This document shows, in pieces, positions 3,630 through 59,891 of a stretch of DNA of 64,000 nt. This stretch comes from Maribacter sp. ACAM166 (GTDB lineage Bacteria; Bacteroidota; Bacteroidia; Flavobacteriales; Flavobacteriaceae). Location of the stretch: contig NZ_VAUW01000003.1 in assembly GCF_005771495.1 (NCBI RefSeq), positions 124,001 through 188,000 of the forward strand, written 5' to 3'. A program made the position numbers and the translations under genes. Below the pieces are notes generated by a model, which searched no databases, was not told the DNA's origin, and worked only from the letters and a program-made list of their open reading frames with translations. Every line of letters begins with the position of its first letter. Position 1 is the first letter of the stretch.

Positions 3630-4700
3630 TTACCTTACATCTGCTATATGCCGCAATTCTTCCTTATCCAGCAAAACGATCCTTCGGCCACGACCCATGG
3701 TTATCAGGCCTTCTTCCTTGAATTCGGAAAGGCTGCGGATCGCGGTCTCGGTAGCGGTGCCGACAATGCCCGCAAAGTCTTCCCTCGGAATATCGATACC
3801 CTCGTTGGGCAAATCCTTTATAATGCCTTTGGCGTACAGGTTCAATAAGGTCTTGGCCACACGCTGCCGAACGCTTGAATAGGCCATGTTGACCAGTTGT
3901 TCCTGCACTTCCGCCAGATTGTTGCCAATGATGTCCATAAACTTTTGTGCTACCTCTTTGTTGTCGTTAAGCAGATGAATGAAATCTGATTTGGGAATGT
4001 GGTACACCTCGGAATCCTCCATAACCATGGCAGACTCCAAATAAGTGCCTTTTTGGTTCATCAGGGACAATTGCCCCATAAAATCGCCCGCTTTAAGGAT
4101 TCCGGTAATAAACTCCTTGCCCGATTCGGTCGATTTGTACGTTTTTGCCGTTCCGCTCTCGATAAGGTACAAGGTGTGCGCGCCATCGCCTTCCATAAAG
4201 ATAAAATCCTTTTTTTTATACGTTTTAGGGCGATAATCCCTTGAAATGGTTTCGAGGTTCAGGTAGTGGCCGGCATCCTGAAAAAAATCGTTGATACCCT
4301 TTATGTTCCTTGAAAACTCCTTCCGTAGAAAATCGTTCTTTTTCAAGCGGCTTTCGATGGCATCCAGAAGCTCAAGTTCCTCAAAAGGCTTGGTCAGGTA
4401 ATCATCGGCACCGAGGTTCATACCTTTTCTAAAATCGCTCCTATCGGTTCTGGCCGTCAAAAAAATAAAGGGAATACCGGCCGTTGTAGCATCCTTGCTC
4501 AATGCGTCAAGTACTTCGTAACCGTCCATCACGGGCATCATAATATCGCAAAGAATAACATCGGGATGGAACTGTTTTCCTTTTTCGATACCTATTTTTC
4601 CATTTTCGGCGGTCGCCACCGTATAATTGGAAAATTCCAGAATATCGGCCGTGTTCTCCCGAACATCTTTGTTGTCTTCTATTAAGAGTATTTTTTTCAT
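3630..4700 (-). CDS. Response regulator fused to Crp/Fnr-type DNA-binding module
   Basis: 356 residues. Residues 1-125 are a receiver domain with acidic pocket E8/D9, phospho-acceptor D52 (VILCDIMMP) and a conserved LTKPF. Residues about 150-270 form a cyclic-nucleotide-binding-like barrel, and about 285-345 a Crp-type winged helix (IPREDFAGIVGTATETAIRSL, with Glu and Arg at the base-contacting spacing of Crp/Fnr recognition helices). REC-Crp fusions of this kind occur in Bacteroidota. No cysteines suited to an Fe-S cluster are obvious, so the input is probably phosphorylation. It is one of two in-window candidates to bind the TGAY-N4-RTCA boxes. Its own upstream region has only an 11-bp TGA-N5-TCA at 4765, with wrong geometry. 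Confidence 0.93.
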   Translation of the reverse strand: MKKILLIEDNKDVRENTADILEFSNYTVATAENGKIGIEKGKQFHPDVILCDIMMPVMDGYEVLDALSKDATTAGIPFIFLTARTDRSDFRKGMNLGADDYLTKPFEELELLDAIESRLKKNDFLRKEFSRNIKGINDFFQDAGHYLNLETISRDYRPKTYKKKDFIFMEGDGAHTLYLIESGTAKTYKSTESGKEFITGILKAGDFMGQLSLMNQKGTYLESAMVMEDSEVYHIPKSDFIHLLNDNKEVAQKFMDIIGNNLAEVQEQLVNMAYSSVRQRVAKTLLNLYAKGIIKDLPNEGIDIPREDFAGIVGTATETAIRSLSEFKEEGLITMGRGRRIVLLDKEELRHIADVR

Positions 4701-5874: not shown

Positions 5875-5930
5875 GTATCGCAACTTATTTTGAACTCGTT
5901 TAAAATTTTTAGATAAACGAATTCTTTAAA

Positions 5931-42646: not shown

Positions 42647-42689
42647 TAAATGTATTTTATCTCTATGGTTTTCAAAATGACCTAGGTCA
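42647..42689 (-). promoter_or_regulatory. Crp/Fnr-type box promoter of PDH E1 operon
   Basis: Box TGACCTAGGTCA, a perfect palindrome, at 42678-42689; minus-strand -7 TACATTTA at 42647-42654. Confidence 0.85.
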
Positions 42690-56162: not shown

Positions 56163-56831
56163 ATGTTCAAAGAGCTGACAAAACACTACGGACGCATTTT
56201 TGAGGAAGAATTGCTTAGGGAGATCAACCAAATTGGTGCTTTTAAAGAAGTAAAGGAAGGCCAAGTATTGATAAAAATCGGGCAATACGTGAAATTTATG
56301 CCCCTTTTGGTTTCAGGGGTACTCAAAGTTATGCGAGAAGACACCAACAACAAGGAATTACTCCTCTATTTTTTACAGGATGGCCATACGAATTCCATCA
56401 AATGGGTTTGGGGCACCGAACGAAAAAAAAGTAGGGTCAAGGTGGTTGCCGAGACGGATGCCCAGGTCATTATGCTGCCTGCCAAGAAAATGACGGAGTG
56501 GCTTTTGAAGTATAAAAGTTGGGGCACATTTGTACTTTCCAGTTATGACCACCGGATGAACGAACTATTGGATATGATGGACAGTATCGCCTTCTTGAAG
56601 ATGGATGAACGCCTGCTCAAGCACTTAAAAGAACGGGTACGCATTACCAAGAGTACAATGCTATACTGTACCCATCAAGAAATTGCCGATGACCTCAATA
56701 CCCCTAGGGAGGTGGTTTCCCGATTGTTGAAAAAATTGGAAAATATGGGTAAAGTTAAACTTCAGCGCAATCAAATCGAAATTCTTGACTCAAAATTTCG
56801 TTCGCTATCGCACTCAAAAAGAACGGCTTAA
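56163..56831 (+). CDS. Crp/Fnr-family transcription regulator
   Basis: 222 residues. Cyclic-nucleotide-binding-type barrel (FKEVKEGQVLIKIGQYVKFM, GVLKVMREDTNNKELLLYFL), long dimer helix, and HTH with HQEIADDLNTPREVVSRLLK, whose RE..SR recognition-helix pattern matches Crp/Fnr proteins that read TGA half-sites. No N-terminal Fe-S cysteines like those of Fnr. Its promoter carries a box, so it may regulate itself and is a good candidate for the activator of this regulon. Confidence 0.93.
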   Translation: MFKELTKHYGRIFEEELLREINQIGAFKEVKEGQVLIKIGQYVKFMPLLVSGVLKVMREDTNNKELLLYFLQDGHTNSIKWVWGTERKKSRVKVVAETDAQVIMLPAKKMTEWLLKYKSWGTFVLSSYDHRMNELLDMMDSIAFLKMDERLLKHLKERVRITKSTMLYCTHQEIADDLNTPREVVSRLLKKLENMGKVKLQRNQIEILDSKFRSLSHSKRTA

Positions 56832-57072: not shown

Positions 57073-57393
57073 ATGGATAGAAAACAAAAACCACCTAAGA
57101 ATATTACACTATTACCAGCCCCTGAATTCATTACAGCCGTTCAAAATAGAAAGGTTCAGTTGATTGATATTCGAACGCCTCCAGAATATGATGCCAAGCA
57201 TATTAGGGGTGCCATAAATATTGACTTGTCCTGTTTTGATAGTTTTATCGAGGCATTTGAAAAAATCGAAAAAACCAGACCGCTTTATTTGTATTGCGAA
57301 ACCGGAAGAAAAACAGAAAAAGTGGTAAAGCTTTTTTCTAAAATGGGTTTCGAAAGCATCTGCCATTTAGAACGCGGTATTAAAGGAATTTAA
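57073..57393 (+). CDS. Rhodanese-like domain protein
   Basis: 106 residues from MDRKQKPPKN; longer in-frame starts (ATG 57034, TTG 56980) are possible. Rhodanese fold: QLIDIRTPPEYDAKHIRGAI, DLSCFDSFIEAFEKI, LYLYCETGRKTEKVVKLF with the active-site Cys in CETGRK, and a closing GGI-type ERGIKGI. It could transfer sulfur or sense it. Long leader (about 160 nt) containing a CCCCGAAA/TTTCGGG stem. Confidence 0.85.
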   Translation: MDRKQKPPKNITLLPAPEFITAVQNRKVQLIDIRTPPEYDAKHIRGAINIDLSCFDSFIEAFEKIEKTRPLYLYCETGRKTEKVVKLFSKMGFESICHLERGIKGI

Positions 57394-57416
57394 GGAGTAG
57401 GGGGCAGCCAAAAACA

Positions 57417-57445
57417 GAAACAGGAGGCCTATGGTCTCCTGTTTC
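57417..57445 (+). terminator. Terminator of the rhodanese gene
   Basis: Stem GAAACAGGAG / CTCCTGTTTC with inner GCC/GGT pairs, followed by CTTTT on the plus strand. On the minus strand it is followed by TGTTTTTGG, so it may act both ways. Confidence 0.7.
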
Positions 57446-57600
57446 CTTTTGAAGCGTTCGAATTTATTTTTTGTTTCTGACACATCCTTAGCATTTTCAT
57501 CGCTGAAATTGCATTGGGCGGTCTTCGTTAAAAATAAGAGCGAGCCCTTTCTGGACTTTAGAATTTTGCAATTCTATCGCCCTTTCCCTTATGTTTTTAA

Positions 57601-57638
57601 AAAGAACCGGAATATCGGAATATCCCGATTCTTTTTTA
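57601..57638. terminator. Terminator-like hairpin in the non-coding array
   Basis: Imperfect stem AAAGAA..CGG..AATAT / ATATCCCG.TTCTTT followed by TTTTTT (plus strand). No transcript could be assigned to it. Confidence 0.45.
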
Positions 57639-57859
57639 TGGTATCCTACGATTCTAATTTTTGAATGCAGACCAAGCAGGAACGTACTAGCATACGCATA
57701 TACTTGGATTTCTAAATGAAAGAACTCGCTGCGATACCACTTTTATGGCCGCCAAGGCATTGCTGCTTGGAAGCCTTTATCGTTGATTTGAATAACTCCT
57801 ATTTTACCTCCCCTAAGGGGAGGTCGAAATTGATTTTTCGCAATTTCGGGTGGGGCTAA

Positions 57860-57945
57860 GAGAAAAAACAGGAAGCCGAGACTTCCTGTTTTCCATAAAG
57901 AAATGAAATTCATCGTTACCTTCAACTTATCTTTTATATCATTTT
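57860..57945 (-). ncRNA. Candidate short RNA, possible decayed sRNA copy
   Basis: The -7 octamer TATTTTAG (57950-57957) is the same one used by the three sRNAs, and about 80 nt downstream is a strong terminator, stem AAAACAGGAAG / CTTCCTGTTTT (57865-57892) plus TTTTTT. No Crp/Fnr box is present at the expected place, so this may be a decayed or differently controlled copy. Confidence 0.3.
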
Positions 57946-58039
57946 ATCACTAAAATAATCTAACCGATACATTTGGGTTTCAACTGCATCCTTTTCTTCA
58001 TTATGATTTGTGCCGGTCTTACGATGGCACCGATCAATG

Positions 58040-58287
58040 CTTTAAAGAAACTGGAACATTCGCATGTTCCAGTTTCCAAGAAAGTGTAAAATTTACCGTT
58101 GACCGCTTTACGTAATCTTGAGTGAAACCTATTGCTAGGCCATAGCTAAGACCACACGGCTTGGGGTATTTTTAACACCTTCCTATACCAGACCTTATTA
58201 CTCCCCACGAATAATAAGTTCGTCGTATTTTTAACCTTGAAGTCGTTCGGACTTCGTTTTTCAAAGAACTAGATCGTTTCTAATGAT
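58040..58287 (-). ncRNA. Small RNA A of the tandem array
   Basis: Predicted transcript of about 248 nt from the box promoter 58292-58334 to the terminator stem GAAACTGGAACAT / ATGTTCCAGTTTC (13 bp, loop TCGC). The 5' part has AGTTCTTTGAAAAA, shared with copies B and C. A middle hairpin CTTATTA / TAATAAG presents the loop TTCGTGGGGAG. It has no ORF of useful length. The 3' body has diverged from B and C. Confidence 0.7.
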
Positions 58288-58291
58288 GCCA

Positions 58292-58334
58292 CTAAAATAG
58301 GGGAGGGCACCACCGCTCAAAATGACCTACGTCA
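58292..58334 (-). promoter_or_regulatory. Crp/Fnr-type box promoter of small RNA A
   Basis: Box TGACCTACGTCA at 58323-58334; minus-strand -7 TATTTTAG at 58292-58299. Confidence 0.8.
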
Positions 58335-58351
58335 GTTTGCTGCTTTTTTTT

Positions 58352-58577
58352 AGAAAAAGAAACTAGGATACCGAGATACCCTAGTTTCCTAGAAGACGTT
58401 ATTCTAACCTATAACCTCTTATACTGGTACTTACTTGAATTTATCGCTAAATCCGTTCAGGACTCAAATGGTATAAAGGATGTCCTAACGGCCTCCTTTT
58501 CTTTGGCTTTTCGTTTCCCCACGAAACAAAGACCCAACCTACTTATTTTTTCAAAGAACTATATCGTTTCTAAATAT
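58352..58577 (-). ncRNA. Small RNA B of the tandem array
   Basis: About 226 nt. 5' element TTTAGAAACGATATAGTTCT then TTGAAAAAATA, a hairpin built on TTTCGTGGGGAAACGAAA, then CCAAAGAAAAGGAGGCCGTT, and a terminator stem GAAACTAGGGTATC / GGTATCCTAGTTTC followed by TTTTT. There is no ATG in the transcript. The GGAGG element has no start codon behind it, so it is not a ribosome site for a coding region. Confidence 0.75.
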
Positions 58578-58581
58578 GATG

Positions 58582-58624
58582 CTAAAATAGGGGAGGGTTT
58601 CCATACTCAAAATGACCTACGTCA
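58582..58624 (-). promoter_or_regulatory. Crp/Fnr-type box promoter of small RNA B
   Basis: Box TGACCTACGTCA at 58613-58624, identical to copy A; minus-strand -7 TATTTTAG at 58582-58589. Confidence 0.8.
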
Positions 58625-58641
58625 GTTTGAACATTTTTTTT

Positions 58642-58875
58642 GAAAAAGAAACTAGGATACCGAAATATCCTAGTTTCCTAGAAGACGTTCTTCGACCCGA
58701 TTTCCGCTTATAATGATATGTACTGCGGTAAATTGCTCAACCTTCTTCCATATCAAGGGTACAAAAGGGATTCTGTAACGGCCTCCTTTTCTTTGGATTT
58801 TTGTTTCCTTGTGAATCAAAAACCCAATCAACCAACCAAACTATTTTTTCAAAGAACTATTTCTATCTTATTTAT
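58642..58875 (-). ncRNA. Small RNA C of the tandem array
   Basis: About 234 nt. Shares AGTTCTTTGAAAAAATAG, AAATCCAAAGAAAAGGAGGC (then CGTTA) and the terminator GAAACTAGGATA / TATCCTAGTTTC (12 bp, 58648-58677) plus TTTTT with copy B. The middle stem keeps pairing with changed bases (TTTTTG...CAAAAA in place of the B stem). The only ATG opens a 4-codon frame. It begins right after pfkB, so read-through from pfkB is possible. Confidence 0.75.
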
Positions 58876-58879
58876 AAGG

Positions 58880-58922
58880 CTAAAATATAGCAGTTTTTCG
58901 ATGTTCAAAATGACCTAGATCA
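58880..58922 (-). promoter_or_regulatory. Crp/Fnr-type box promoter of small RNA C
   Basis: Box TGACCTAGATCA at 58911-58922; minus-strand -7 TATTTTAG at 58880-58887. Confidence 0.8.
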
Positions 58923-58937
58923 GTTTGAGGATTTTTT

Positions 58938-59891
58938 TTATTTTTTAACAGTTTGTGCCCTCCTGATCCATTCGTACAACTTGTCCGCATCGTCTTTGTT
59001 GCACAATTTCGTTCCCTCGTGCATGGTAGCCGCCGTGCCGCAGGCTACTCCGTATTTTACCATGTCGCTGAACGATTTGCCCCAGATAAGGCTCATGACC
59101 ATACCGGCGACCATGCTATCGCCCGCACCGATGGTACTTTTTTGAAGCACCGTGGGGGCGGGCACATACTCCATTTCATACTTGGTAGCCAATAGTGCTC
59201 CTTTTGCGCCGAGCGAAACCACCAAAGCCTCACAATCATGTTCCGCCAAAAACTTTTTCGCCAAGATTTCCAGTTCCAAGGCCGAAATTGATGGTACGCC
59301 GCACAAGGCGGCCAACTCGCCTAAATTGGGTTTTAGGATATAAATGTGTGAATGGGCAGCGGCCTTCATTAAAGCTTCTCCCGAGGTATCCAAAATAAAA
59401 CGCGCCTTTTTCTTTCGGGCGATTGCTGCCACTTGTACATAAAAGTCATCGGGAATTCCAGGAGGCAGTTTTCCGCTGGCAATCAGATAATCGCTCTCTT
59501 GAAGATAATCCTCCAATTGTTTTAGAACGGCTTCCCATTCCTCCTTTTTTACATTCGGCCCGGGCATCCCGAACCTGTATTGCTGATTTGTAACGGTATC
59601 GGTCACGGCGAGGTTGTCGCGCGTCCACCCTTCGATTTTGATAATTGATTGCTCAATGCCATCCTTGTCCAATAGCTGTTTGAGATGATTTCCGGTCGGG
59701 CCACCGGCCAGATACATACCAAGCGAATCGCCCCCTAATTTTTTGATGGCGCAGGACACGTTTATTCCCCCGCCACCGGCATCATAAGTGGGTTCTGTAC
59801 AGCGCAATTTGCTATTAGGGCTTATTCCGACTACCGTAGTGCTTTTGTCGATTGTCGGATTTAAGGTCAATGTGATGATTCTTCTGTGCAT
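58938..59891 (-). CDS. pfkB: 6-phosphofructokinase 2 type sugar kinase (PfkB)
   Basis: 317 residues. Close to E. coli Pfk-2 throughout: LTLNPTIDKSTTV, KLRCTEPTYDAGGGGINVSC, WTRDNLAVTD, QYRFGMPGP, IASGKLPPG and anion-hole/catalytic-base TIGAGDSMVAGMVMS. It phosphorylates fructose 6-phosphate with ATP. It lies 15 bp behind gpmA in the same operon. Confidence 0.94.
   Translation of the reverse strand: MHRRIITLTLNPTIDKSTTVVGISPNSKLRCTEPTYDAGGGGINVSCAIKKLGGDSLGMYLAGGPTGNHLKQLLDKDGIEQSIIKIEGWTRDNLAVTDTVTNQQYRFGMPGPNVKKEEWEAVLKQLEDYLQESDYLIASGKLPPGIPDDFYVQVAAIARKKKARFILDTSGEALMKAAAHSHIYILKPNLGELAALCGVPSISALELEILAKKFLAEHDCEALVVSLGAKGALLATKYEMEYVPAPTVLQKSTIGAGDSMVAGMVMSLIWGKSFSDMVKYGVACGTAATMHEGTKLCNKDDADKLYEWIRRAQTVKK

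Follow-up and report, generated by a model that had tools for sequence, protein, structure and literature searches.

A tandem array of structured noncoding RNA modules with a boxA-like 5' element in Maribacter sp. ACAM166 and other Flavobacteriaceae

Small RNAs under the control of an oxygen or stress regulator include FnrS in enterobacteria and a DosR-dependent sRNA in mycobacteria. The array described here, which lies in a 64,000 nt stretch of the Maribacter sp. ACAM166 genome (the window), was likened to them in a sequence-only reading, and as proposed there it would share this type of control. It differs from them in having six modules and a boxA-like element, in lacking an Rfam match and in lying in a genome in which no Hfq was found. 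At gathering score, neither the window nor 18 relative loci matched any family of Rfam 15, and none of the nine matches in a relaxed scan of 57380-58960 reached this score, the best being whalefall-1 on the other strand; FnrS and other Rfam families were rejected on this result. No PF17209 (Hfq) match was found in the Maribacter genome at E 0.001, where 5 of 14 control genomes were positive, which disfavours an Hfq-dependent sRNA. The view that the RNA is not FnrS in sequence agrees with both searches.

The sibling sRNAs of Neisseria and LhrC of Listeria are short base-pairing sRNAs with their own promoters. Like the array they comprise several homologous sRNA genes per genome, but the array modules are diverged and ordered, and those downstream have no recognised promoter. 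Sponges of the CsrB/RsmZ type have multiple, repeated hairpins that present a common motif, as the array does. They differ in that no CsrA was found here (no PF02599 match in the genome at E 0.001, with 3 of 14 control genomes positive), and a CsrA sponge was rejected for this reason. 6S-Flavo RNA (Rfam RF01685) is also a noncoding RNA of Flavobacteria; here it has a separate gene elsewhere in the genome (102.9 bits) and no match in the array, and 6S was rejected for the array on these results.

Antitermination at boxA is known for rRNA, some mRNAs and CRISPR arrays. Like the array, boxA-led rRNA operons and CRISPR arrays have a long untranslated transcript with boxA near its start and several units downstream (PMC7862264). 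The array differs in that its units are structured RNAs, it has a Crp-type box and terminator-like hairpins separate its units; its boxA is recognised by sequence. A survey of boxA in gamma-proteobacteria states openly that non-coding RNAs were left unconsidered (PMC5725501). Within the same bacterial family, the Rfp sRNAs of Flavobacterium psychrophilum, for example Rfp18, are structured as well; they are compared here by description, not by sequence, and neither 'fnr' nor 'boxA' occurs in the main text on them (PMC9723704). Titles and abstract openings returned by a literature search held no description of the array RNA.

Array layout and promoter geometry

The three tandem minus-strand units of the sequence-only reading were refound by an unguided repeat scan of the window, with start-to-start distances of 298 and 290 nt. 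Over 115 nt, identity to the middle copy is 77% and 74% for the two outer copies. The box, the -7 element and AGTTCTTTGAAAAA are at equal positions within each of units 1-3, and box and TATTTTAG combined occur at three places in the genome, all of them in the array. The three units are real, but they are part of a longer array: the repeat scan and a covariance model, R1 (see below), give six related modules between 57412 and 58940 (Table 1). R1 finds weaker units downstream of the leading units in steps of about 190 nt. Its match to unit 6 is weak by itself. Neither box nor boxA was found in unit 4. The units had been described as lacking ORFs; on both strands the array contains ORFs of 42 to 77 aa.

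Between modules 4 and 5 there is a whalefall-1-like element on the plus strand (57804-57857), which is sub-threshold at 28.3 bits against a gathering score of 37. In the relatives L048 and L022 there is only a short linker at this place.

Table 1. Features of the array and candidate regulator genes in the window
Feature	Position	Strand	Basis or remark
Receiver domain + cNMP-binding + Crp-type HTH protein, candidate box regulator	3630..4700	-	Pfam
Second Crp-family protein near array, alternative regulator	56163..56831	+	Pfam
pfkB-family sugar kinase gene, directly upstream of array	58938..59891	-	Pfam PF00294
Activator box, unit 1 (TGA-N6-TCA dyad + TTTT)	58907..58923	-	exact match; -7 element 19 nt downstream
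-7 element TATTTTAG, unit 1	58880..58887	-	
boxA-like element AGTTCTTTGAAAAA, unit 1	58845..58858	-	
5' hairpin, unit 1	58793..58827	-	predicted fold
Structured core, unit 1 (M1 type A): rod + terminator-like hairpin 58648-58677	58643..58787	-	R1 113.6 bits; in model training
Activator box, unit 2	58609..58625	-	exact match
-7 element TATTTTAG, unit 2	58582..58589	-	
boxA-like element AGTTCTTTGAAAAA, unit 2	58547..58560	-	
5' hairpin, unit 2, G-rich loop GUGGGGA	58503..58537	-	predicted fold
Structured core, unit 2 (M1 type A), terminator-like hairpin 58359-58388	58354..58497	-	R1 136.7 bits; in model training
Activator box, unit 3	58319..58335	-	exact match
-7 element TATTTTAG, unit 3	58292..58299	-	
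boxA-like element AGTTCTTTGAAAAA, unit 3	58257..58270	-	
5' hairpin, unit 3, G-rich loop	58185..58228	-	predicted fold
Structured core, unit 3 (M1 type B), terminator-like hairpin 58047-58076	58042..58184	-	R1 77.6 bits, E 7e-19; outside model training
Unit 4 (module M2), terminator-like hairpin ~57863-57894	57859..58046	-	R1 39.9 bits, E 2.8e-8 on 57859-58001; alignment A3 covariation
Unit 5 (module M3), terminator-like hairpin ~57603-57632	57598..57785	-	R1 29.5 bits, E 2.3e-5 on 57598-57741; aligned with relatives
Unit 6 (module M4), terminator-like hairpin ~57417-57446	57412..57597	-	R1 20.3 bits, E 0.009 on 57412-57552; alignment A4 covariation

The box CTGANNTAGGTCATTTT is present without mismatch once in each of units 1-3. 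Allowing up to two mismatches there are 15 matches in the window against 0.32 expected, the two at 5927 and 5930 being the two strands of a single palindromic site. An activator-type box at a fixed promoter distance had been claimed, and TANNTT (density 0.0064) does lie exactly 19 nt downstream of the box in 12 of the 15, or 9 of the 12 outside the array. This spacing places the dyad centre near -40, which is the class II position of Crp/Fnr activators. By this geometry, units 1-3 are predicted to start at a class II Crp/Fnr-type activator promoter.

The 12 matches outside the array include those at 42674, 43755 and 47623; the nine with the same TANNTT distance precede genes that appear by eye to be stress-related (universal stress proteins, BON-like proteins and PDH E1). 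These boxes may constitute a class II regulon of the whole island. The most likely candidate regulator of the box is the receiver-Crp fusion; homologues, some of them partial, were found by tblastn in 12 of 36 relative loci collected by pattern.

Structure, conservation and distribution of the modules

The modules follow a common predicted layout: a hairpin comes first, then a long imperfect rod whose tip is often capped by a GNRA loop, and finally a 3' hairpin. In M1 an outer stem leads into a rod interrupted by internal loops, which is topped by an apical stem whose loop is mostly of GNRA type; a hairpin of 14 pairs follows. Single-sequence folds were better than those of shuffled sequences for unit 1 (z -3.7) and unit 3 (z -6.2), and weak for unit 2 (z -1.8, with 9 of 200 shuffles equally good).

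A hairpin with compensatory base changes had been described from the three copies, and the alignments bear this out. Alignment A2, on which R1 is based, contains 24 sequences (units 1 and 2 and 22 relatives), 23 of them distinct. It does not include L035, L021, L060, the four units of type B or the Winogradskyella-like types, and L038, which is cut by a contig end, was excluded from model work. Its structure of 46 pairs was written by hand. In A2, 88.2% of cells pair and 30 of the 46 pairs have changes on both sides, with 106 double-change cells against a shuffled mean of 34.3; none of 500 shuffles was as high, and one of the five measures ('further pair types') was attained by 7 of 500. When partners were slid by 1 to 3 columns only 37-54% of cells paired, a control that leans in favour of the structure because it was partly drawn from single-sequence folds. 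The M2 alignment A3 (20 sequences; eight of 28 candidates excluded and L019 added) has changes on both sides in 27 of 54 pairs and 73 double-change cells against 23.4, and the M4 alignment A4 (13 sequences; two of 15 candidates excluded) in 18 of 49 pairs with 35 cells against 12.5; again none of 500 shuffles was as high in either case. The M2 and M4 structures were predicted from the same alignments used for covariation. Across M1, M2 and M4, sliding the partners reduced paired cells from 88-93% to at most 58%. The covariation supports M1, M2 and M4 as conserved structured noncoding RNA modules. M3 was treated with RNAalifold only, on nine sequences, one of which is doubtful.

The loop of the 5' hairpin is often G-rich in the leading units of the window and their relatives (GUGGGGA, CGGGGGAA); it is a possible pairing or binding site. 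Additionally, a stem-closed tip motif, YAGNRAUR, which was picked after the array had been inspected, occurs four times in the 1.5 kb array (units 2, 3, 4 and 6) and seven times in the whole window on both strands. In 500 first-order Markov shuffles it occurred 0.09 times per array length, with a maximum of one. Its presence in four of six modules makes a shared protein partner plausible.

Unit 2, used as a DNA query against 249 genomes of the same family (its own included), gave matches in five: its own genome, L011, L012 and L013, which have the same layout, and L014, where the match is short and chance-like. The pattern of box, -7 element and boxA gave 51 matches in 46 loci across the genome contigs, and ten of these loci were dropped as chance by eye (L023, L024, L029, L043, L045, L050, L053, L055, L061 and L062). 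The remaining 36 loci (41 matches) are all from Flavobacteriaceae, going by their titles, and include Maribacter, Arenibacter, Winogradskyella, Saonia, Algibacter, Gelidibacter, Kordia, Eudoraea and Croceivirga. R1 matched at E <0.01 in 34 of the 35 pattern loci searched (21 of the 35 are in its training set), missing L035, and on the ten chance loci gave one match, at E 0.68. The covariance-model search that the sequence-only reading had proposed is therefore positive, for relatives as well as for three more units of the array itself, and the proposal of a novel family is upheld by these many relatives and the lack of an Rfam match.

The order M1-M2-M3-M4 is the same in L018, L022, L048, L052 (which has two leading units) and L056. 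Shorter series of the M1-M2(-M3) type are found in L021, L040 and L060, L020 also has a partial series, and the Winogradskyella locus L026 has three promoter-led M1 units with further R1 matches after the second and third. The neighbourhood recurs too. In a tblastn search with 23 window proteins (E 1e-8), at least one homologue was found in 33 of the 36 loci (all except L036, L044 and L058) and in none of the ten chance loci; some matches are partial or of 25-33% identity, and several protein names were assigned by eye. A PfkB homologue is a recurrent neighbour (11 of 36 loci), as are PEP synthase, DUF302, universal-stress-type proteins and a PAS kinase.

At E 0.01, R1 has matches in 35 of 397 family genomes, the Maribacter genome among them, and 19 of these score at least 40 bits. 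Within the genus 13 of 36 genomes match, 12 of them with more than 100 bits. A phylum-wide draw gave 7 of 395, where only two, at 29-31 bits, are outside the family. These counts are lower bounds because the large searches use stricter filters. The distribution of the array is patchy. Two further copies of the RNA are present in the Maribacter assembly (G000:C38:62444-62579 and G000:C63:20534-20670; L150 and L147): one is degenerate and without boxA, and the other is of the Kordia-like M1-M2 type with a truncated second leader. Their origin is uncertain, given an assembly contamination of 4.58%. A related tandem series in L117 (G031) has a different box (ATGATATTTGTCAT) and 5' hairpin, and is perhaps a sister family.

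The boxA-like element and the follower modules

AGTTCTTTGAAAAA occurs exactly at five places in the 4.92 Mb genome, three of them in the array, and is one base off the gamma-proteobacterial boxA consensus GYTCTTTAANA (PMC5725501). The genome's own rRNA leader reads GTTCATTGAAA, again one base different from the array element. In a set of 30 leader loci, mostly from the same genus (some pairs are from one genome and one locus has a leader of only 36 nt), TTC[AT]TTGA or TTCTTTAA was found within 350 nt upstream of 16S in 27 loci, 21 of the 30 as GTTCATTGAAA; the T form of the array element was in none of the same-genus leaders. A second leader set had a form within one mismatch in 9 of 16, and of the other seven, five are AAGTTC-led by eye and two are short.

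Because boxA, the -7 element and part of the box were in the pattern by which loci were collected, finding them in those loci is circular. R1 does not include the 5' element and its matches therefore serve as a test. With at most one mismatch, GTTCTTTGAAA lies 51-63 nt upstream of the R1 match in 13 of the 30 loci examined. Many of the weaker matches among the 30 are probably chance; above 90 bits, 9 of 12 have the element within one mismatch and a tenth has it with two. Eight of the 13 bearing loci (L101, L102, L103, L105, L108, L109, L110 and L116) are outside the R1 training set and were collected without a boxA query. Their variants include GTTCATTGAAA, the form of the genus rRNA leaders, and GTTCTTTAAAA, a boxA preceding a Legionella CRISPR array (PMC7862264). 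L107, which was counted as lacking GTTCTTTGAAA, reads GTTCATTTGACAT, near the rRNA-leader forms. In L101, L102, L103 and L107 the boxA variant upstream of the RNA is identical or close to forms seen in rRNA leaders of the family (GTTCATTGAAA, GTTCATTTGACAT).

The shared 5' element of the sequence-only reading is thus present in all three units, but it is best read as boxA, a putative NusB/S10 antitermination signal, and not as specific to the family. What speaks for this is resemblance at a conserved position, which makes the element a putative NusB site. In the predicted fold of unit 1 boxA is complementary to the 3' part of the unit; this complementarity is absent from the predicted folds of units 2 and 3.

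Units 1-3 each have a box and a -7 element of their own, as expected of independent sRNA genes. In the relatives that were laid out, however, box and boxA are on the first module, or the first two, only, and the downstream modules do not match that description. Among 41 followers, each checked over 90 nt, the TGA-N6-TCA box was never found, and TANNTTNG, the -7 element, was absent from 40 (19 of 20 M2, 8 of 8 M3 and 13 of 13 M4); looser TANNTTT strings lie upstream of three M2 and one M4. The check was limited to the -7 element and this type of box. All 24 leading units carry both, which follows from how the set was assembled, except for L011 and the window units, whose collection did not depend on the pattern. 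With no such promoter seen for the followers, M2-M4 are most simply explained by read-through. It is not needed for units 1-3, each of which has its own promoter.

A strong terminator stem had been described, and each of units 1-3 does end in a hairpin of about 14 pairs with T-rich sequence behind it, but a terminator scan called no module-end hairpin in the sense direction (3 sites in the region against 1.4 expected), possibly because the scan extends the stem into the U tract. As the scan calls no hairpin of the array, terminator activity is judged here from inspection of stem and U tract alone. Since NusB/S10 complexes work chiefly against Rho, it cannot be taken for granted that polymerase would pass intrinsic-type hairpins. 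A clean association of boxA with followers was looked for across the relatives and not found: L102 and L103 have boxA and no visible follower, and L097 has followers and a poor boxA (two mismatches). The solitary copies L100 and L146, without boxA and without followers, fit such a link, but they are only two.

A model for the array and its alternatives

We favour the explanation, with a probability of about one half, that the locus encodes a stress-induced polycistronic structured noncoding RNA that is read through by boxA-modified polymerase. A Crp-family activator, most likely the receiver-Crp fusion together with a sensor kinase, would bind the TGA-N6-TCA box, which lies about 40 bp before the start, and switch on the leading promoters, as their position and neighbourhood suggest. 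NusB/S10 would load at boxA, transcribed about 20 nt into the RNA, and the polymerase so loaded would resist termination as on rRNA operons and CRISPR arrays. It could then cross the leaky terminator-like hairpins into the promoter-less M2, M3 and M4. Partial termination or processing at the hairpins would give nested RNAs of about 190-240 nt and longer.

The alternative that survives best, and which we think rather unlikely, is that of tandem independent sRNA genes. Each leading unit would yield a single terminated sRNA, about 230 nt long, that acts on mRNAs in trans; the 5' element would be a pairing seed or a stabilising leader, and the followers would be read-through products or relics. 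The promoter and terminal hairpin of units 1-3, the solitary leading units without visible followers (L100, L146, L102 and L103) and the often G-rich 5' loop are all consistent with this. However, separate covariation in M2 and in M4 indicates that these followers are conserved and more than relics; the genome search gave no Hfq, and the variants of the 5' element in relatives are those of rRNA-leader boxA.

We regard it as improbable that the array is a boxA decoy, in which abundant short RNAs with a 5' boxA would soak up NusB/S10 in stress and so reduce rRNA antitermination and ribosome synthesis, with copy number setting the dose. Such a role would suit the location within a stress-type gene region (several names being assigned by eye) and the multiple copies of boxA near the 5' end of every leading unit (three in L026), yet some leading units, such as L100, have no boxA, and a decoy would need neither conserved rods nor promoter-less modules. 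The literature search, in titles and abstract openings, found no description of such titration. It is very improbable that the long imperfect rod seen in many predicted folds binds RNA polymerase as 6S RNA does, given the separate 6S-Flavo gene, the absence of an Rfam 6S match in the array and the presence of several, diverse modules in each array. A repeat family without function, REP-like or mobile, that folds by chance would account for the patchy distribution and for the two further copies in the genome, at least one of them degenerate. It is barely credible, however, since base changes are compensatory, promoter geometry and module order are fixed, and neighbours recur.

Returning to the polycistronic RNA that we favour, since neither Hfq nor CsrA was found, the partner of the repeated fold is more likely to be a different protein, or else RNA with which it pairs independently of Hfq. 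We tentatively suggest a long multivalent RNA of repeated GNRA-tipped rods, expressed as a unit in the style of an rRNA operon, that may act as a scaffold or sponge for one RNA-binding protein. If so, the availability of the Nus complex would set how far the array is read, and would couple ribosome synthesis to the stress programme. If the polycistronic reading is correct, the Flavobacteriaceae would gain a conserved stress RNA, here in a genome in which no Hfq was found, and boxA antitermination would also drive long regulatory RNAs.
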